Below are positions 9,439 to 20,784 of a stretch of 50,197 nt of DNA, in pieces (within the stretch, counting starts at the first letter, position 1; the number at the start of each line of letters is the position of its first letter). Both the position numbers and the translations under genes were made by a program. Source of the stretch: Mollicutes bacterium (GTDB lineage: Bacteria; Bacillota_I; Bacilli_A; Izemoplasmatales; Izemoplasmataceae). The notes under the pieces were generated by a model. That model saw only the letters and a list, made by a program, of their open reading frames with translations, was not told where the DNA came from and made no database searches. The stretch lies in the NCBI GenBank assembly GCA_003553945.1, contig PWEL01000033.1:1-50197 (forward strand), written 5' to 3'.

Positions 9439-11235
9439 CTATCCGAAAAGGATTCCAATCAGTTCATATGAACGGGCGAACAAACCGCCGATGAAGAATG
9501 CGGCGAGTGTGGTGAAGAGAAACACGGCCACTGACGTTCTGATGCTGAACTCCTTGGCAAGGGTCGCGATCATCGCGATGCAGGGCACATAGAAGAGAGC
9601 GACGAGGGCGCCGGTGAAGAACTGCGCTGTCGTGAGGTCCATGTCGATCAGGGGAAGCACTGTGAGCTCCCGGCGGACAATCCCCATGATCAAGGGTGTT
9701 GACGCTTCGCTGGGAAGATTGAGCCAGCCGGTGACCAGCGGTGACATCGCATCACCGACGACGATCAGAACACCGAGCTCATAAAGCAGGGCGGCTGCGC
9801 CGATGGCGATCACCATGGGCACGGCGCCGTCCTTGAGGTAGTGCTTGATGCGGAAGAGGATCTTCCTCGAGAGGATTTTCGGCTTGGGAAGGAGAAGCGG
9901 GGGAAGTTCCATCAGGGTGAAGGGCGGTTTCTGACGGTGGAAGCGGTCGATGACAAGCCCGGAGAGAATCATGGCGATGATGGAGACGATGAAGATCGCG
10001 AAGAAGGCGAGAAGGGACCGCTCCACCAAGAGAACGACGAACGCTCCTGACTGCGCCACGCAGGGCACCGCGAAACTGACCATCACCGCGACCGATAGGC
10101 GTTGTTTCTTAGACGGCAACGCGCGCGTCGACATGATCGCCGGGATGCCGCAGCCGTACCCCAGAAGAATGGGGATGACGCTCGAGCCGTTCAGGCCGAT
10201 CTTCTTGAAAAGACCATCCAGAAGCACAGCGATGCGCGGGAGATATCCTGTATCCTCAAGGATGCTGATCATGATATAGAAGGACATCACATAGGGCAAT
10301 ACAAGGGCGAACGGCCATTCGATCCCCTTGATCAGAAATCCGTACTCGCCGATGAGCACGTTACGGAACGCCCCTTCGGAAACGACGGCGGACACTCCTT
10401 GTTCGATCAATGGAAAGATCATGCCGTCGAAAAGCAGGAGGAGCAGCTGCCGGGTCCCCATGCCGACACCGATGACAAAAGCGAACATCAGCGCGAGCAC
10501 ACCGAGGGCGATCGGGATGCCGGGGAGCGGTTTGACGAGGAATGAAAAGCGGTCGTCGCCGTTCTCCCCGGGGGATTTCACCACATCGTGGGTGATGGTC
10601 TCTACAGCCCGCCAGCGTCCCGTGTCGGTCTCGGGGGGATCATAAGTGATCGTTTCATCGAAGACCTTCGATATGGAATACTTCAGAACATCGAGACTTT
10701 GGGTTTTCAAAGCCACTGTCGGAACGACGGAGACCTTCAACCTTTCAGAGAGGGCGCGGTAGTCGATCTTCATGCCTCGGGACTTCATCAGATCCGTCCG
10801 GTTGAGGGAGACGACAGTGGGGATATTGTATTCAAGCACCTGAAGCAGAAGGTGCAGGCTGCTTTCAAAATTCAAGGCGTCGAGCACGAAAATGATGGCC
10901 TCAGGGCCATCCTCAAGCATATTGACTGCGACGCGTTCGGCGTCATCCTGGCTGTCCTTCAGATTGTATACACCGGGGGCGTCCCTGAGAAGATAGGTCT
11001 CGCCCTCGATATCCATTTGGCCTTCATAGAATTCGACCGTGGTGCCGGAATAGTTCGAGACCATGGCGTCGATACCGGTGAAACGTGAAAAGATGGCGCT
11101 TTTCCCGACATTGGGCAAGCCCATCAGAAGAATGTGCTTATGAGAAGGCCGGCCGCGGGATTCACGGTGATGCTTCCTGCGTAGCCGGCGCTTTTGTCTG
11201 CGTGTGCTTTTGGAACCGCCGCAGTGGTTGGCCAT
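9439..11235 (-). CDS. feoB: Ferrous iron transporter FeoB
   Basis: 598 residues. The G domain (about 33-200) has G1 GLPNVGKS, G2 SNYSGTTVEF, G3 DAPGVYNL and G4 NRTD; the membrane part (about 245-595) has two Gate motifs, including GYGCGIPAIMSTRAL and SFAVPCVAQSGAF. It imports Fe2+ across the cytoplasmic membrane. Ahead of the G domain is an unusual basic extension starting MANHCGGSK and holding a run of Arg/Lys/His, perhaps a metal- or lipid-binding tail. ATG 11235 has GTAGAGAT ahead and overlaps the region of the feoA stop (11243), so the two are coupled. The longer frame to 11301 runs inside feoA. Confidence 0.95.
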   Translation of the reverse strand: MANHCGGSKSTRRQKRRLRRKHHRESRGRPSHKHILLMGLPNVGKSAIFSRFTGIDAMVSNYSGTTVEFYEGQMDIEGETYLLRDAPGVYNLKDSQDDAERVAVNMLEDGPEAIIFVLDALNFESSLHLLLQVLEYNIPTVVSLNRTDLMKSRGMKIDYRALSERLKVSVVPTVALKTQSLDVLKYSISKVFDETITYDPPETDTGRWRAVETITHDVVKSPGENGDDRFSFLVKPLPGIPIALGVLALMFAFVIGVGMGTRQLLLLLFDGMIFPLIEQGVSAVVSEGAFRNVLIGEYGFLIKGIEWPFALVLPYVMSFYIMISILEDTGYLPRIAVLLDGLFKKIGLNGSSVIPILLGYGCGIPAIMSTRALPSKKQRLSVAVMVSFAVPCVAQSGAFVVLLVERSLLAFFAIFIVSIIAMILSGLVIDRFHRQKPPFTLMELPPLLLPKPKILSRKILFRIKHYLKDGAVPMVIAIGAAALLYELGVLIVVGDAMSPLVTGWLNLPSEASTPLIMGIVRRELTVLPLIDMDLTTAQFFTGALVALFYVPCIAMIATLAKEFSIRTSVAVFLFTTLAAFFIGGLFARSYELIGILFG

Positions 11236-13168: not shown

Positions 13169-15100
13169 CTAGAGCCTGGAGGGCCGGTGGAAATAAAAGC
13201 CCTGCTGCAGATGGCACCCAAGCCTTCTCAACGTTTCACTCTGCGCCCTGTTTTCGACACCTTCAGCGATAGGCGCTTTTTCAGAGAGATGCGTGATGCG
13301 TGTAAGCATCTTGATGATCTCCTGGTTCTCCATCTGGACGATTCTCTCGGTGAACAGCGCATCGATCTTGATGATATCGAAATCGACATGTTCAAGGATG
13401 GAAAGCGAAGAATATTCCTTGCCGAAATCATCGAGGGCGACATGAAACCCTTCGCTACGGTATGCGGCAATCCGTTCGATACAAGCTTCGAGATTGTAGA
13501 CAAAGGTCTTCTCGGAGACTTCTATGACCACATCGGCGGTCGATAATCCGTAATCCACGACGCGTTTTTTGATATATGCAATATAATCAGGATTGAGAAG
13601 CGTAGAGGGCATGAGGTTCAAGGATAACGCCACATCATGGTAGGAATCCTGTTCCCGGGCCATCGAGAATTTTTTGATCGAGCGGTCGATAAGATACCGT
13701 TCCAGCCTGTCGAGGATGTTCGCTTCCTTGGCGACGGCGAGAAAAGTCTCGGGCCGGAGGACACCCAGGACGTCATCTTTCCATCTGGCCAGCTGCTCCA
13801 GATAGGCCGGTGCGCCGGTCTCAACATCCCGGACCTCCTGAAAATGAACATCTATCTGGTCTTGTTTCAAGGCTTCCCGGAGCCTCTCGGCCATATGGAT
13901 GTTATATTCTATCTCCTCCCGCATGGAAGGCAGATACCGGACCACCCGCGGCGTCGCGGACTCTGTGCTCTTCCTCATGGCGAGGGAGGATGCGTCGATG
14001 AGCTCGACAGCGCGCCCGACATCATCGGGATAAAGGGCGTAACCGCTGTTCAAGCGCACGTCGATAGTCTGGCTCGCGCATTTCAGCGTGGTCTTCAGCA
14101 TCGTCGAAATCTGTCTCAGAACATCATCTATACGCGCATCGCCTAGTTTTGCGTCCTTGAACAGCACTGCAAAGGTCGCTTCGGAGAGGCGGTAGATGCC
14201 TGCTTCATCGTTGTCAAGACACGCAAGGCGCTGCACAAGGTCGAAAAGCAGCTGCTCGCTCTCTTTCTCTCCGTAATAATCGGAGAAGGTCGAAAAGCTG
14301 TTTACACTGACCGAAAGAAGCATGGTGCGCTCCTCTTCACAGGTGCGCAACGTTTTTATCAGTGTCTCCCTATTGTAGGGGCCGTTATTCAACCGCATCT
14401 TTTTATCATCCTCTGAGAAGCCTCCCAGTGCTTCCTCGTTCTTATTTTCATTGGATGACGCATGCAGCATCCGTGCCTTGATCAGATATCCGGAAGCACA
14501 CCGTTTTATCTTTTGAAAACGGAAAAGGGTGTAATGCCTTGCCTTTTCAAAACGCAGCCGGAAAAAGCAGCTTTCCTCTCTTTGATCATTCAATACATCG
14601 TGAAACATGGGCAAATCTTCAGGATGAACCATTTGCTCGAACCGCCTGAGGCTCGTCGATTGATAAGTATAAGGGATGTCGTGGTGTTGGATGATCTTCC
14701 CGCCGATATGCATGAACACCCTTCGCTTCCTGAACTTGATCTTCAAGGTCCCATCATCGACGGATACCTGCGCCGCGCCGCTCTGCAATCCCTCGAAAAA
14801 CAACGCGGACCCGAAATACAGCACGCCCAGCATCGTGAAGACGGACTGCATGGAATACTCCGCCGTGCCTTGATTCATGAATTCAGGATAGAACTGCATG
14901 GTAGTCGCACCCAGGATAAAGACCAAAGAGAATGCGAGGAAGGCATGGCGCTTTTTATAAGAAGCGCGCATCAGAACCGCGCTCAGAAATACAACGCCGA
15001 CGCTCATAAATACCGGCACCGCCAACAGCCAGAGCGCCTCGATATGATACATCGCCAGCAGCATAAGACAGAACGCAGTGATATAGAATCTTTTGAACAT
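13169..15100 (-). CDS. Membrane GGDEF/EAL protein, probable c-di-GMP phosphodiesterase
   Basis: 643 residues: about four N-terminal membrane helices (1-110), a PAS-like linker (about 140-220), a degenerate GGDEF domain (about 255-385; SEATF where GGDEF should be, so no cyclase activity expected) and a C-terminal EAL domain. The EAL active site is kept: EQLAR, the Asn of LSLNLM, EVSE, DDFG, the Lys of IIKID, AEGVE and the Gln of LQQGFYF. It should hydrolyse c-di-GMP. ATG 15100 follows AGGAGG by 5 bases; ATG 15118 (GAGGG, 6 bases) is nearly as good. Its promoter (15221-15270) carries the same box as the peptide precursor gene, which ties it to the RNPP regulator. Confidence 0.9.
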   Translation of the reverse strand: MFKRFYITAFCLMLLAMYHIEALWLLAVPVFMSVGVVFLSAVLMRASYKKRHAFLAFSLVFILGATTMQFYPEFMNQGTAEYSMQSVFTMLGVLYFGSALFFEGLQSGAAQVSVDDGTLKIKFRKRRVFMHIGGKIIQHHDIPYTYQSTSLRRFEQMVHPEDLPMFHDVLNDQREESCFFRLRFEKARHYTLFRFQKIKRCASGYLIKARMLHASSNENKNEEALGGFSEDDKKMRLNNGPYNRETLIKTLRTCEEERTMLLSVSVNSFSTFSDYYGEKESEQLLFDLVQRLACLDNDEAGIYRLSEATFAVLFKDAKLGDARIDDVLRQISTMLKTTLKCASQTIDVRLNSGYALYPDDVGRAVELIDASSLAMRKSTESATPRVVRYLPSMREEIEYNIHMAERLREALKQDQIDVHFQEVRDVETGAPAYLEQLARWKDDVLGVLRPETFLAVAKEANILDRLERYLIDRSIKKFSMAREQDSYHDVALSLNLMPSTLLNPDYIAYIKKRVVDYGLSTADVVIEVSEKTFVYNLEACIERIAAYRSEGFHVALDDFGKEYSSLSILEHVDFDIIKIDALFTERIVQMENQEIIKMLTRITHLSEKAPIAEGVENRAQSETLRRLGCHLQQGFYFHRPSRL

Positions 15101-15147
15101 CCGGGCCTCCTGAGACATAGCGATCCCTCGCCTTTCTATTGTAGAGT

Positions 15148-15201
15148 TCATGCTGCAAAATAATCATTCTTAGGAAGACGTTTTTTAACTCTTTTAATCA
15201 T
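15148..15201 (-). CDS. 17-codon leader ORF ahead of the GGDEF/EAL gene
   Basis: The first ATG downstream of the inferred start of transcription (about 15213) opens MIKRVKKRLPKNDYFAA, preceded by GGAAAAG. It is basic and unlike the acidic precursor repeats. It may be a small translated leader or a chance frame; a second TACAAT near 15138 could start transcripts that skip it. Confidence 0.3.
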   Translation of the reverse strand: MIKRVKKRLPKNDYFAA

Positions 15202-15220: not shown

Positions 15221-15270
15221 ATTGTAAAGCGATATATTCCCTTGAAACAGCGCGGATATGTCGCATTTTT
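15221..15270 (-). promoter_or_regulatory. Box-bearing promoter of the GGDEF/EAL gene (P2)
   Basis: On the minus strand the box core CGACATATCCGCGCTGTT (15246-15263, with five A and AT-G extension to 15270) ends exactly 19 bases before TACAAT (15221-15226). The same box, 24 of 25 bases alike, sits at the same distance from the -10 of the peptide precursor gene (16320-16369). No TTGACA-like -35 is present, so the box probably replaces it as an activator site. Confidence 0.75.
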
Positions 15271-15384: not shown

Positions 15385-16305
15385 TCATGTCACGCGTTTT
15401 TTCAAAAAGCGGAGCGCGAAATTGTCAAAATGGATGTTGAAATCTTTTTCTATCCACTGAATGAACATCTCGTTCTTCTTTTTGTTTCCTTCGAGCTGGA
15501 GGACGTTGTAGCACTTGAAAAGGGCATTCTCATACTCTTCGAAGTCCTCCAAGGCAAACCACGCAAGCGCTTTGTAGTAGAAAAAGTACTCCAGTAGATA
15601 GTATTATTTATAATAGATGCCCCTCTTGATTCCAAGGTTGCAGAAACCGATGACATCATTATAGTTTTGTCGCTCTCCATGCTTTTTACTAAGTCGCATC
15701 AGTATTACTGCGTGCACAAAATCCGTTCCACTGCTTAAAATTCTTTCCTCGTCATCATAAAGTTTCGACAGATGTTCGAGCAGCTGTGCATATGTCCCAT
15801 CCCTGTCGAGTTCAAGGATTGTGCTCAGAATCAATACTTCAATATCTGTAAAATAACTTTGCTTTAGCACTTTTGGATAATTGACAAGTTCAAGGAGTCT
15901 CGAGATTGCAAGGTCACGTGTTGTCTTCTTCTCCAGATATTCATATAAAATCAACGCATGGTCGTAATGAAGCTTGGTCTCTTCTTCAATCAATACTTCT
16001 TGATTGATCAGTGATTGTAGTCGTTTCGCTTCACTACGGTTTCTATTCACGACGGCATTATATAAGTCATTGATAAGCTTCAATTGTCGATGCTTTTCCT
16101 GTTCAAACTCATTTAATAACTTTTTACTTGGAATACCGAGTTTATCCGCAAATTGTTGAAGTTTCTCATAGGGAATTTCGCATTCACCGCTGCGATACCT
16201 TTGATACTGCCGCAAGGAGACGATGCCGTCGACAAATTCCTCCTGGGTGACCTTTCTTCCTAGACGCACACGCTCTAGGTAGTTGCTGAGTTCCATTGAA
16301 TTCAT
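15385..16305 (-). pseudogene. RNPP (PlcR/Rgg-like) peptide-sensing regulator, interrupted by one in-frame TAA
   Basis: The frame opens at ATG 16305 (AGGAGTGAGCCAGC ahead). An N-terminal XRE helix-turn-helix (about 8-65; VTQEEFVDGIVSLRQYQRY) is followed by helical TPR-type repeats. At codon 234 stands TAA (15604-15606), but the same frame continues as YYLLEYFFYYKALAWFAL and on through KCYNVLQLEGNKKKNEMF to TGA at 15385, with text typical of the C-terminal TPRs of this family. Full length would be 306 codons, as expected; the 233-residue product lacks the last repeats that cap the peptide pocket. Divergent from the tandem-repeat precursor gene. Either a recent nonsense mutation, a sequencing error, or stop readthrough. 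Confidence 0.85.
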
Positions 16306-16319
16306 GCTGGCTCACTCCT

Positions 16320-16369
16320 AAAAATACGACATATCCGCGCTGTTCGACATGGAATTTCTCGCTTATAGT
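16320..16369 (+). promoter_or_regulatory. Box-bearing promoter of the peptide precursor gene (P1)
   Basis: The box core CGACATATCCGCGCTGTT (16327-16344, match extends left to 16320) ends exactly 19 bases before TATAGT (16364-16369). The -35 region has no good TTGACA, as expected for an activated promoter. Downstream TCGCTT next to the -10 is also shared with P2. The box lies 15-39 bases ahead of the receptor start, so it could also serve receptor autoregulation. Confidence 0.75.
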
Positions 16370-16402
16370 GTAAAGTAAAGTTGATATAAGGAGGCGTTTT
16401 GA

Positions 16403-16882
16403 ATGAAACGATTGCTCTTCGTTACTGTTTTCGCACTAACATTGTTTGCATTCTCCGGTGATTCCATGATCACACCCGATGGTTTCGATGACGACGACCA
16501 CTTCCCCGAATATGTCGTTTACTTCGACGGTATCACACCCGACGGCTTCGATGACGACCACTTCCCCGAATATGTCGTCTACTACGACGACGTCACGCCC
16601 GACGGCTTCGACGACGACCACTTCCCCGAATATGTCGTCTACTTCGACGACATCACGCCCGAGGGCTTCGATGACGACCACTTCCCTGAATATGTCGTCT
16701 ACTTCGACGACATCACGCCCGACGGCTTCGATGACGACCACTTCCCTGAATATGTCGTCTACTTCGACGACATCACGCCCGACGGTTTCGATGACGACCA
16801 CTTCCCTGAATATGTCGTCTACTTCGACGACATCACGCCCGACGGCTTTGACGACGACCACTTCCCCGAATATGTCGTCTAA
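16403..16882 (+). CDS. Secreted tandem-repeat protein, candidate multi-copy peptide pheromone precursor
   Basis: 159 residues: a Sec signal peptide (MKRLLFVTVFALTLFAFSG) followed by seven copies of a 20-residue unit, ITPDGFDDDHFPEYVVYFDD, the last ending at PEYVV. The mature part is extremely acidic and has no cysteine. Size, signal peptide and place beside a divergent RNPP receptor recall papR/nprX-type pheromone genes, but those carry one copy. If processed like PapR, the product would come from the end of each unit, around HFPEYVV. AAGGAGG sits 8 bases ahead of the ATG. Alternatives: a calcium-binding or surface repeat protein, or a bacteriocin precursor. No homologue is known to me. Confidence 0.8.
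   Translation: MKRLLFVTVFALTLFAFSGDSMITPDGFDDDDHFPEYVVYFDGITPDGFDDDHFPEYVVYYDDVTPDGFDDDHFPEYVVYFDDITPEGFDDDHFPEYVVYFDDITPDGFDDDHFPEYVVYFDDITPDGFDDDHFPEYVVYFDDITPDGFDDDHFPEYVV
16469..16879 (+). repeat. Seven 60-bp in-frame tandem repeats
   Basis: Unit 1 is 63 bp (one extra GAC), units 2-6 are 60 bp and unit 7 is 48 bp before the stop. Differences in the core GFDDDHFPEYVV fall at five sites and are all silent; the four amino-acid changes (I/V, D/E, F/Y, D/G) all lie in the linker. Units 5 and 6 differ at a single base, which suggests recent copy-number change. Confidence 0.97.
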
Positions 16883-16911
16883 CAACTAACTCGCTGAAAG
16901 GAGATTCTCAT

Positions 16912-17187
16912 ATGACAAAACAGGAATTCATCGTAGAAATGGATGGTGTGATCGGTACCATCAGGACATACACAAGGAACCCCTTCATGATGGGATATAT
17001 CAAAGAGCTCAAGCGTTCCATCGAGCACGATGATTACGACAAGATCAGGATTGCCCTGGACAAGCTTATTGAATGGTATCAAGAGGAGTATGACAACATC
17101 AAGACCGATGAGTATGTCTTCAATAAGCACATGCACGAAAAGGCTTTCCATATACTGTCAAGGTATCGCGAAGCGCTGCAAAGCTGA
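16912..17187 (+). CDS. Small helical protein cotranscribed with the repeat protein
   Basis: 91 residues, mainly predicted helices with alternating charge, no signal peptide and no membrane segment; I recognise no family. GAAAGGAG precedes the ATG, which lies 29 bases after the precursor stop with no terminator between, so both are read from P1. In peptide systems such a partner may be a processing factor, an immunity protein or a second regulator, but nothing in the sequence picks one. The unit ends at the hairpin 17284-17312; the 96 bases after the stop hold nothing else that I see. Confidence 0.8.
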   Translation: MTKQEFIVEMDGVIGTIRTYTRNPFMMGYIKELKRSIEHDDYDKIRIALDKLIEWYQEEYDNIKTDEYVFNKHMHEKAFHILSRYREALQS

Positions 17188-17325: not shown

Positions 17326-20094
17326 TCAATCGCTTTTGAAGTCCTTGTTCATTGTCGTCTTTTCCAGAATAGCGTCGAGAAAATGCAGAACCGCCGGAAG
17401 CAGGAGGAGCACGAAGACAACAGAGACTGCCGCCCCTCGAGCCAACAGATATCCGACACTATATATCGCCATCTGCGATGAAACAATGCCCACGGCCAAT
17501 CCAGCGGTGATAAGGATGAGGCCCGATGTGAACACAGTCGGCAGCGAGCGGTTGACAGCCAGCTTCAATGCGTCACTCTTGCCATAGTGATTCCGGAGTT
17601 CCAGATAGCTTGACGAGATAAGGATGCCGTAGTCGACCGTTGCGCCCATCTGGATCGCAGTGACCACAATGTAGGTCATGAAGAAGATCGGCTCGCCTAT
17701 GAGAGCGTTGAAGCCCATGGACATCCAGATGGCCCCTTGAATGATCATCACCAGAATGAAGGGGAGCGTATAGGAACGGAATGTGAGGCCTACAAGAAGG
17801 ACGATCGCACCGACAGTGATGAGACTGATACGGAGAAGGTCCTCGTCAAACGCATCGGCGATATCATAATTGGAGATGACTGTGCCGGCGAAATATGCCT
17901 CCTCGGAGAATATCTCTTCTCCTTCCGAACGCATGAATTCAACAAGATCGAAGGCGTCTTCCCCTTCCGAATCAATCTCAAGGGTGAGGATCATGCGCGT
18001 ATAGGACTCGCCGGCGAACATCTCTTCGGCAAACGCCAGTTCATCGAGGGCATGGTCGAGCATGTCGCGAACATCCTCATCGACAAAGTCCTGCAGGATT
18101 TCGTTGTTTTCAATTTCGCCCTCAATAAACATCAACAAATCCTTTGCGCGTATCGTCTCTTCGGAGATTCCGGCTTCCTCGGCGAAATAAAAGGAGTAGA
18201 GCAGCTTGAAGAAGTCTTCGTCCGCATCTTCAATCTGTTGAGCGGCTTCCTGATAATCATAGGATTCATCCACGGATTCAATGAATGGAACCAATGCATC
18301 CATTGTCTCCCGCTCATCCTCGCTGAGTGTGATCGCCCCCTCATCATCGAGCTCGTCGATGAACAGGATGAGCTCCCCGAGTTCAATCGTCTCCGTGCCG
18401 TCGAAATCTCCGATGAGCAGATCGGTGGCCAAGGCTGCGGCCTGTTGCATGAGGGCCTCATCAGGGTCGTAGTCATCGGAATGATACGCCCAGTAGAGAA
18501 ACAGCATCTCGATCTCGGACATCTCTAGAAAGGCCGCCGCCTCTTCTATGGTATAGTCCTCATCGATTTCATCCTTCAAGACGGCGAACTCGGCGATGAA
18601 ATCGCGTGTCTCTTCATCGAGCGCCTCATCCAGAGGTGCCTCATCAGCGTGCGCATCCAGGAAGGCGACCATATCCCTGACCGCAACGGAGTCTTCCTCA
18701 ATATATCCATGCTCGAGATGATAAAGCCCGAAAAGGGCGCCGGCCATCGTTTCATCCATGCCTGCCATCTCGGCTACGTCCATCGTGTCGAGAGGCGCCA
18801 GCGCCGTAGCCACATAGCTTGCCTGACCCTTGAGGACCCTGTCGCCGTCTATTTCATAATCCTCGAGGCTTTCAATGAACGCCTCTTGTTCTTCAAACAC
18901 ATCGTCATGCGTTTCAATGGTCGCCGTCACGGGCTCGCTGCGGCCGAACATGGCTTCAATCTCATCCGCCCCTTCAATGTCAGGTTCATCGGCGAAGAAA
19001 TACTCATTGGTGGTCTGCACCGCGAACGCAGCGAAAAATATGATGACGGTGAGTACCGGCAATAGTTTCCTGCCTTTCAGGGAAAATCGCGTAAACGGGC
19101 CGCCACGTAGGTTGATTGTCCGTTTGCGGGTCTTGTCGAGAATCCTCGAGCTGACGAGCAGGAGTCCTGGAAGGACCAAGAAGACACTTATGAGCGAGAG
19201 AAGGATTCCTTTCGCAAGGACCACGCCGAGGTCGAGGCCGATCTCGAACGTCATGAAGGTCAAAGCGAGCATGCCGGCGACGGTCGTCAAGGAGCTTGAA
19301 GAGATCGGAGCGATCGACCGTGCCAAGGCTTCCTTCATCGCATCTATGTTGTTTGTGAACCGTTCGCGTTCCTGATGATAGCGGTTGAGAAGGATGATGG
19401 AATAATTCATCGACAGACCGAGCTGGAGCACCGCCGCGACGGACTGGGTGATGTAGGAGACATCGCTCAGGAAATAGTTCGTCCCCATATTGATAATGAT
19501 GGCCATGGTGACGACAACGATGAAGACAGCCGGTTCGAGCCAGGAACGTGATGTAAGCAGGAGAATGCCGAGCACGATGCTGACGGCGAGCACCATGATC
19601 CAAGGGAGCTCGCTGAGCACCGCTTCCTGCAGCTCATAGTTGGCGACCGACGGTCCCGCGAGATAGGCATTATAATCTTCGACAACATCCTTGATATCAA
19701 GGACGACCTGTTCCGCGTCCGGTGAATAATCATCAGCGTCGATTGTCACCTGCAGGAGTGCCGTCCCGCCTCTGGCACGAATATAGTGCTCGGGGGAGTG
19801 TTCGTCAAAAGTGACGAACTGCACATCGTCGAAGTCACCGATCTCCTCCGCTACATCATGGGCCTCCTCGGCGGATACATCCAGCAGCATGACTTCCGCG
19901 GTGCCGGTGCGCCCGAACTCTTCTTCCATCGCCTCGAGACCGAGCGTCGTCTCGGAATCCACAGGAAGATAGTCCGCCATGTCGTAGTTGACTTCGACCC
20001 GCGGCATCAGAAATGCGCTGAACAATGTCAGAACGAGCATGAATCCCATTATATAGAAGCGTTTATCGACGATGAACGAGGCTATCTTATGCAC
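17326..20094 (-). CDS. MMPL/RND-family exporter
   Basis: 922 residues with two repeats of one helix, a large extracytoplasmic domain and five clustered helices (about 15-330 and 360-915). The second outer domain is very acidic and alpha-helical (about 370-720). Markers are NYDMADYLP after helix 1, and QLGLSMNYSIILLNRY and QMGATVDYGILISSSY, the proton-path helices of MMPL proteins. It should export a lipid, peptide or drug using the proton gradient. The start is GTG 20094, with GGGGGTGATGTA ahead. It shares its control region with a divergent TetR regulator (20227), the usual sign of a ligand-induced efflux pump. Confidence 0.92.
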   Translation of the reverse strand: MHKIASFIVDKRFYIMGFMLVLTLFSAFLMPRVEVNYDMADYLPVDSETTLGLEAMEEEFGRTGTAEVMLLDVSAEEAHDVAEEIGDFDDVQFVTFDEHSPEHYIRARGGTALLQVTIDADDYSPDAEQVVLDIKDVVEDYNAYLAGPSVANYELQEAVLSELPWIMVLAVSIVLGILLLTSRSWLEPAVFIVVVTMAIIINMGTNYFLSDVSYITQSVAAVLQLGLSMNYSIILLNRYHQERERFTNNIDAMKEALARSIAPISSSSLTTVAGMLALTFMTFEIGLDLGVVLAKGILLSLISVFLVLPGLLLVSSRILDKTRKRTINLRGGPFTRFSLKGRKLLPVLTVIIFFAAFAVQTTNEYFFADEPDIEGADEIEAMFGRSEPVTATIETHDDVFEEQEAFIESLEDYEIDGDRVLKGQASYVATALAPLDTMDVAEMAGMDETMAGALFGLYHLEHGYIEEDSVAVRDMVAFLDAHADEAPLDEALDEETRDFIAEFAVLKDEIDEDYTIEEAAAFLEMSEIEMLFLYWAYHSDDYDPDEALMQQAAALATDLLIGDFDGTETIELGELILFIDELDDEGAITLSEDERETMDALVPFIESVDESYDYQEAAQQIEDADEDFFKLLYSFYFAEEAGISEETIRAKDLLMFIEGEIENNEILQDFVDEDVRDMLDHALDELAFAEEMFAGESYTRMILTLEIDSEGEDAFDLVEFMRSEGEEIFSEEAYFAGTVISNYDIADAFDEDLLRISLITVGAIVLLVGLTFRSYTLPFILVMIIQGAIWMSMGFNALIGEPIFFMTYIVVTAIQMGATVDYGILISSSYLELRNHYGKSDALKLAVNRSLPTVFTSGLILITAGLAVGIVSSQMAIYSVGYLLARGAAVSVVFVLLLLPAVLHFLDAILEKTTMNKDFKSD

Positions 20095-20114: not shown

Positions 20115-20165
20115 TTGACTTATGCGACACGTGAGTAATATAATACATATTATCCAATCATACAA
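20115..20165. promoter_or_regulatory. Overlapping divergent promoters of the MMPL and TetR genes
   Basis: Plus strand: TTGACT (20115-20120), 18 bases, TATAAT (20139-20144) to the TetR gene. Minus strand: TTGTAT (20160-20165), 17 bases, TATATT (20137-20142) to the MMPL gene. The -10 elements overlap. ATAATA-CA-TATTAT and CACGTG are small dyads here that could be the TetR operator. Confidence 0.75.
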
Positions 20166-20226
20166 CACCAGAGACTTTCAAGTTGTGTCTTTTTACTCAG
20201 AATATTCTTTTTTGTGGAGGTCTTAC

Positions 20227-20784
20227 ATGGATAGACGTGTCCGAAAAAGCCGGGAGGCCATAAAAAAAGCGTTGCTGATAATGTTGAAGCGTGAGGAGCT
20301 GCAACAGATCTCTGTCAAGACGCTCACGGAAATCGCCGATGTCAATCGCAAGACATTCTATAACCACTTCTTCGACATCTACAGCGTCCTTGATGCCATC
20401 GAAGGCGATATCACTCACGTCATCCTCACACGGATGGCCGGTTATGACTACACAGACCTTTCCAAGAACCCCACGCCCTTCCTCAAAGAAATCACCGAAG
20501 AGCTCAACGCCAACGAGGACTTCAACCATCTCTTCATCCATCCGAGGCTTTCGAACCGCATCCTGAGTAGAATCAAACGGACGTTGAAAGACGAACTGAC
20601 CACCTTCTACAGAAACCGCTACCAGAAAGACCCCACCGCTTTTTCCTTCGCGCTTTCATTCGTGATTTCCGGCGCGCTCGATACCTATCAGGAATGGTTC
20701 CATTCCGACCGCTCGATCAGTCTCGAGACCCTAACTGAGAACATCAGTTCGCTCATTGCGGGCGGCATCCGCTCCACGTTATGA
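20227..20784 (+). CDS. TetR-family regulator
   Basis: 185 residues. The N-terminal helix-turn-helix (about 10-55) reads KTLTEIADVNRKTFYNHF, the usual TetR recognition helix with TFYNHF, and the rest is the helical ligand-binding part of the type seen in AcrR/DhaS-like members. I chose ATG 20227 (GGAGG 6 bases ahead) over the longer frame from 20122, whose first 35 codons are promoter DNA. Most likely it represses the divergent MMPL exporter and itself. It ends at a hairpin shared with the convergent M20 gene. Confidence 0.9.
   Translation: MDRRVRKSREAIKKALLIMLKREELQQISVKTLTEIADVNRKTFYNHFFDIYSVLDAIEGDITHVILTRMAGYDYTDLSKNPTPFLKEITEELNANEDFNHLFIHPRLSNRILSRIKRTLKDELTTFYRNRYQKDPTAFSFALSFVISGALDTYQEWFHSDRSISLETLTENISSLIAGGIRSTL

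Follow-up and report, generated by a model that had tools for sequence, protein, structure and literature searches.

Among the peptide quorum-sensing systems described to date, the closest to the locus considered here is PlcR-PapR of the Bacillus cereus group, in which a receptor with XRE and TPR domains is paired with a secreted precursor carrying its pheromone at the C-terminus, and in which an operator lies upstream of the pheromone gene itself. Divergent gene pairs can occur in the Rgg-SHP systems. Precursors of the Phr, NprX, AimP and PapR types, from Bacillales and their phages, can hold several identical or similar pheromones, and up to six (PMC9765709) or up to eight (PMC11343458) copies per RRNPPA precursor have been published. 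A preliminary description of the present locus had taken one copy per precursor as the norm and the pair as a candidate new quorum-sensing system; because six- and eight-copy RRNPPA precursors are on record in these two papers, a multi-copy precursor is not new in kind.

The window, that is, the whole stretch of 50,197 nucleotides analysed, is a single contig (C20) of a draft genome (G000) of 1.17 Mb that is 64% complete. By public-record names, the nearest relatives of its receptor come from Mollicutes bacteria and Candidatus Izimaplasma/Izemoplasmatales, and for the closest three, isolate names (T3Sed10, B1Sed10) hint at a sediment source, which we take to be soda-lake sediment. The cassette (Table 1) is read here, with a probability of about 0.85, as RNPP-type quorum sensing in the Izemoplasma/Acholeplasma lineage, its secretion, maturation, import and binding steps being predicted. 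As first described, a receptor gene (16305-15604, -) and a gene for a signal peptide followed by repeats (16403-16882, +) diverge from a short intergenic region; that description overlooked the in-frame TAA in the receptor gene, an additional Asp in the first repeat, the operator, the EAL gene and the SpbK-like third gene. Adjoining the cassette, an MMPL-family transporter gene (17326-20094, -) is divergent to a TetR-type regulator gene (20122-20784, +), an order kept in the relative L029.

Table 1. Features of the cassette in the window, followed by examples of the peptide unit.
Feature	Position	Strand	Basis or remark
Membrane GGDEF-EAL protein, predicted c-di-GMP phosphodiesterase output	13169..15151	-	motifs
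-10 box TACAAT, EAL gene promoter	15221..15226	-	19 nt from operator
Second operator copy AACAGCGCGGATATGTCGCA, upstream of EAL gene	15246..15265	+	repeat and comparison of relatives
Continuation of receptor frame, 72 conserved codons up to TGA 15385-15387	15385..15603	-	matches C-terminus of intact relatives
RNPP (PlcR/ComR-type) receptor, XRE HTH and TPR	15607..16305	-	233 codons, then in-frame TAA 15604-15606
Operator AACAGCGCGGATATGTCGTA, in the gap separating receptor gene from precursor gene	16325..16344	-	repeat and comparison of relatives
-10 box TATAGT, precursor promoter	16364..16369	+	19 nt from operator
Predicted secreted precursor of 159 aa, with a signal-peptide-like start, then seven copies that end in HFPEYVV	16403..16882	+	frame call, repeat reading
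Tandem array, 60-nt period, first unit 63 nt, core GFDDDHFPEYVV	16469..16879	+	TRF and unit alignment
91-aa four-helix protein, SpbK N-terminal domain homologue, third conserved component	16912..17187	+	profiles, model, synteny
Example unit LDFDDHHIPEHVTV			three copies
Example unit LGFDDPEDLPEYVS			seven copies
Example unit DFDDRDEPEFINI			nine copies
Example unit DFHNSGNPEYEEL			eight copies and a variant ninth (Peloplasma)
Example unit DFDDEDFPEFINL			ten copies
Example unit DFDDDDLPELINI			about twelve copies, array runs off contig

Pfam and NCBIfam returned weak HTH matches only for the receptor, and Rgg, ComR and PlcR were reached weakly by sequence profiles alone. The fold was modelled with AF2 on the intact receptor of the relative L052 (mean pLDDT 90.6). 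Among solved structures, Foldseek placed PlcR-PapR-DNA (3u3w, E 9.8e-6), ComR, PrgX and Rgg2 at the top, and a second aligner matched the same model to PlcR with Z 17.2 across 263 residues at an rmsd of 7.8, a large value that we read as domain movement. The modelled fold is that of an HTH and TPR receptor as in RRNPPA systems, with PlcR-PapR-DNA as its best match, and on this relative it bears out the earlier assignment to the RNPP-type regulators.

The precursor begins with a signal-peptide-like stretch (MKRLLFVTVFALTLFAFSG), as assessed on hydropathy only, here and throughout. TRF gave a period of 60 nt, 6.8 copies and a 93% match over its gene, and seven units are found by reading, the number originally proposed. 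Within the 12-residue core, the codons for Gly1, Phe2, Asp3, Pro8 and Val12 vary between copies, silently every time, and unit alignment confirms that the replacements I/V, D/E, F/Y and D/G all lie in the linker, outside the core. The claim of a core with silent changes only holds for these five codons, but copy 1 carries one additional Asp (GFDDDDHFPEYVV) and the core is not perfectly invariant. An automatic count over 5.8 aligned copies, linker included, gave 8 silent to 3 replacement changes (p=0.0006). Pfam and NCBIfam matched nothing credible to the repeat gene. With 159 aa, the precursor exceeds the 10-100 aa propeptide range of RRNPP_detector (PMC10075063), a limit set for searching rather than one that biology imposes; single-copy relatives fall within it, and long multi-copy precursors such as that of the window would be missed.

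In relatives, silent and replacement changes between copies in one gene number 22:0 in L095 (p=1e-14), 15:0 in L048 and in L063, 13:0 in L064 and 12:0 in L053, the expected silent share being about a quarter; L050 and L052 were left out of these counts, as automatic repeat detection took the wrong frame. A strong silent excess is present in most multi-copy genes. Gene conversion alone would remove both kinds of change. The counts agree with selection on the repeated peptide itself, as first suggested from the window. The peptide also varies in step with the receptor. Across 40 systems, peptide distance and TPR distance are correlated (r 0.68); the partial Mantel statistic for peptide and TPR given HTH is 0.50 (p=0.0002), with shared ancestry only partly removed, and that for peptide and HTH given TPR is -0.06, in a comparison where the TPR part exceeds the HTH in both length and variability. 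Judged by these distances, peptide divergence tracks the receptor TPR domain, not the DNA-binding domain, and the co-variation that the preliminary description had proposed to look for is found.

A single pass of the receptor profile through the GTDB genome set detected 63 loci, and one locus was detected in viral contigs. The loci belong to Izemoplasmatales, Acholeplasmatales and Haloplasmatales, and cultured carriers include Acholeplasma oculi, A. granularum, A. laidlawii, A. equifetale and Peloplasma aerotolerans; among 392 sampled genomes of the phylum, the receptor was found in 33, from five families only. By hand reading, a divergent secreted peptide gene with a predicted signal peptide lies upstream of the receptor, adjacent to it as in RRNPPA systems, in 49 of the 60 readable loci, i.e., those with at least 200 nt of upstream sequence, and further systems exist besides; the co-occurrence of receptor and repeat gene expected from the first reading therefore holds among the relatives. 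A recognisable peptide is absent from the other 11 of the 60, mostly those with the most distant receptors.

The peptide unit, of a form like xDFxDxGxPExVxL, is present in 1 to at least 12 copies, and its consensus across systems is [LV][DG]F[ED][DN]xGxP[ED][YW]V. Two or more copies occur in 33 of 42 curated systems, a figure in which L086 counts as a three-copy system on account of its three single-copy genes, and many units abut directly without a linker. Single-copy precursors are about 45-60 aa long with one C-terminal unit (e.g. VLVDFENSGEPEWVTR). At L086 (1-549), three consecutive single-copy precursor genes, two ending VDFDDIDLPEVVVV and one IDFDDIEHPEVVK, lie upstream of one receptor, which is amplification at the gene level instead of the unit level. 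Some genomes (loci L204, L205, L207, L210, L213 and L214) contain at least two tandem receptor genes and the SpbK-N-like gene, with single-copy precursors that differ in sequence (e.g. ADDEDIVYPLSPRPY); these loci are a family of paralogous signalling cassettes. In the one-contig genome of L222 (2715-3246), a peptide-like gene and an SpbK-N-like gene occur with no receptor adjacent, and the former is possibly an orphan signal. OppA-type binding proteins (PF00496) are encoded in 35 of 41 genomes, with two in the genome of the window; PF00496 was not found in the system-bearing G004, G005, G008 and G018, of which G004 is rated 96% complete.

The window holds two oppositely oriented copies of a 26-nt sequence, one in the gap that separates the receptor gene from the precursor gene and the other upstream of the EAL gene, and versions of the operator contained in this sequence are found upstream of nearly every receptor. 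Izemoplasmatales have the form AACAGCGCGGATATGTCGTA and Acholeplasmataceae MAGs the form AACAGGGCGTATATGTCCTA; that of Acholeplasma, AACACGACATATATGTCGTA, encloses a perfect palindrome. In Izemoplasmatales loci with an EAL gene, the second operator precedes that gene, and both operators co-vary between species. A search of 61 genomes gave 36 operator matches in 19 of them, and none with a reversed control. The distance from the operator end to the -10 hexamer is exactly 19 nt at 56 of 57 peptide promoters and 15 of 19 EAL promoters, and also at 10 of 10 further Izemoplasmatales sites and most Acholeplasmataceae sites. Any other spacing is found at no more than 7 of the 57, except a spacing of 14 with 22 matches, which we put down to sequence common to one clade. 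The 19-nt spacing places the operator centre near -41.5, the position of a class II activator, and on this in silico evidence the predicted target promoters hold a defined operator. Predicted targets outside the cassette, named by eye, include secreted or membrane proteins, a C39-peptidase-like ABC transporter and two EAL-type genes located on other contigs in G003 and G054. The genome of the window has a third exact operator on contig C8 (22048-22067; L046, about 10049-10068), flanked by an operon that by eye is encapsulated-ferritin/encapsulin-like and by a 164-codon membrane-protein frame. Control of the encapsulin operon by this site was rejected, as a TATAAT box at 19 nt faces the membrane-protein frame.

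The 91-aa gene lies within 2 kb of the receptor in 31 of its 43 occurrences in the 61 genomes, in 29 of them divergently; ten of the remaining 12 lie close to a contig end (about 400 nt or less), the pattern that assembly breaks at repeats would produce. The order receptor, peptide, 91-aa gene is also found in more distant families (L243, L244, L245 and L247). The protein matches the N-terminal domain of the phage-defence protein SpbK (E 2.7e-16; PADLOC spbK 6e-18) and is modelled as a four-helix bundle (pLDDT 95), the form published for SpbK residues 1-94 (PMC12847820). The SpbK residues F69 and F71, which touch the phage portal YonE in the published model (PMC12847820), align to Tyr68 and Phe70. 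By homology and model, the protein is a predicted N-terminal portal-binding four-helix domain of SpbK type. It lacks the C-terminal TIR NADase domain of SpbK, and TIR_2 has no match in six genomes of the genus (G000-G005), so the gene is not an SpbK system. Foldseek with the model returned nothing significant; the SpbK N-domain is unresolved in the published cryoEM map (PMC12847820). Searches of phages, plasmids and viral contigs found no relatives of the gene, a result that speaks against its being phage-borne. A 375-aa protein with an SpbK-N-like domain is encoded among type I restriction-like genes at L242 (3009-4136). Bacillus subtilis spbK adjoins rapI-phrI (PMC8880864), a suggestive parallel to the cassette and nothing more. 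A speculative and rather unlikely proposal is that quorum sensing is coupled to the phage response through the SpbK-type domain, so that these wall-less bacteria would set their antiviral readiness by cell density; if it were true, the free-standing domain in the signal operon could bind phage portals or feed phage presence into the circuit.

The EAL protein of the window retains the catalytic motifs EQLAR (ExLxR), DDFG, EGVE and QQG (Q motif), and its GGDEF site is degenerate, not canonical; no GGDEF site was found in L048 and L049, where the gene is much shorter. With the EAL motifs kept and the GGDEF site degenerate, activation of the gene would likely lower c-di-GMP.

Taken together, these elements point to the following circuit. 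The precursor would leave the cell by the Sec route, and proteases would release from it several copies of a short acidic peptide around xFDDxHFPEYVV, the C-terminus of which is probably the end of each unit. The peptide would re-enter the cell via an oligopeptide permease and bind the TPR domain of the receptor, which, in its peptide-bound form, would bind the operator. The bound receptor is predicted to activate its own peptide gene in positive feedback, the SpbK-N-like gene behind the precursor, presumably in the same transcript, and the EAL gene, so that c-di-GMP would be lower at high density. Tandem copies would yield more signal per transcript.

In the strain of the window, this circuit may be broken through its interrupted receptor. 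The in-frame TAA stands at codon 234, compared with about 306 codons in relatives; at 233 aa the window copy falls below the 250-500 aa of the RRNPPA class, within which the relatives lie, and on the AF2 model of a relative's fold the last four helices are lost. The stop may be a recent nonsense change, a polymorphism or a draft error. A cassette that is real but dead in this strain, its receptor a pseudogene and its signal produced without response, is a serious possibility, if somewhat short of even odds, and is compatible with quorum sensing in the family. The profile built from 52 relatives reads through this one TAA. Against a dead cassette, the frame beyond the stop has stayed open and conserved, and no damage is seen in the repeat core or in either operator, which implies that the stop arose recently or reflects an error of sequencing or assembly; the sequence comes, besides, from one draft genome with 64% completeness.

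Other accounts concern the family as a whole. Small secreted peptides adjoining a regulator, together with the C39-peptidase-like ABC transporter behind one regulon site, would also suit a multi-copy, bacteriocin-like antimicrobial under receptor control with the 91-aa protein as immunity; yet this account is considered improbable, given that the peptide co-varies with the TPR domain, that the 91-aa SpbK-N homologue looks soluble and that the receptor has the fold of a pheromone receptor. Still harder to sustain is a surface or calcium-binding protein with an incidental receptor neighbour: Asp-rich repeats in a secreted protein agree with it, but the single-copy relatives of about 45-60 aa with one C-terminal unit, the fixed synteny, the common operator at exact spacing and the peptide/receptor co-variation do not. 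The quorum-sensing reading first put forward is supported by co-occurrence, TPR co-variation and the RNPP fold. If it is true, the cultured Acholeplasma laidlawii and Peloplasma aerotolerans are open to direct testing, the 19-nt promoter rule offers a direct genome-wide read-out of the targets of the signal, and the natural range of copy numbers is a clean system for relating precursor copy number to signal dose.

What appears to be new is peptide quorum sensing in the Mollicutes lineage, together with the promoter rule, the output through c-di-GMP and the SpbK-like partner; in open-licence PMC, outside which most subscription journals lie, no literature was found tying RRNPP systems or peptide pheromones to Mollicutes, Acholeplasma or Izemoplasma. 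With PlcR-PapR, its best structural match, the cassette shares the traits given at the outset, but it differs by an identity of only about 12-15%, a divergent and often multi-copy precursor, the SpbK-N-like third gene, the EAL output and the Mollicutes lineage. The PapR7 heptapeptide, which we take to be ADLPFEF, resembles units such as DLPEYV. SpbK of ICEBs1 in Bacillus subtilis shares its N-terminal four-helix domain with the 91-aa protein, which differs in being without a TIR domain. Rgg-SHP and ComR-ComS share the receptor fold class, but SHP peptides, unlike those of the cassette, are tiny and PptAB-exported, and repeated precursors were not found for them (PMC9765709). Whereas the published multi-copy precursors come from Bacillales and their phages and hold up to six or eight pheromones, in the present cassette two or more copies are the rule (33 of 42), the number rises to at least 12 and the units often abut.
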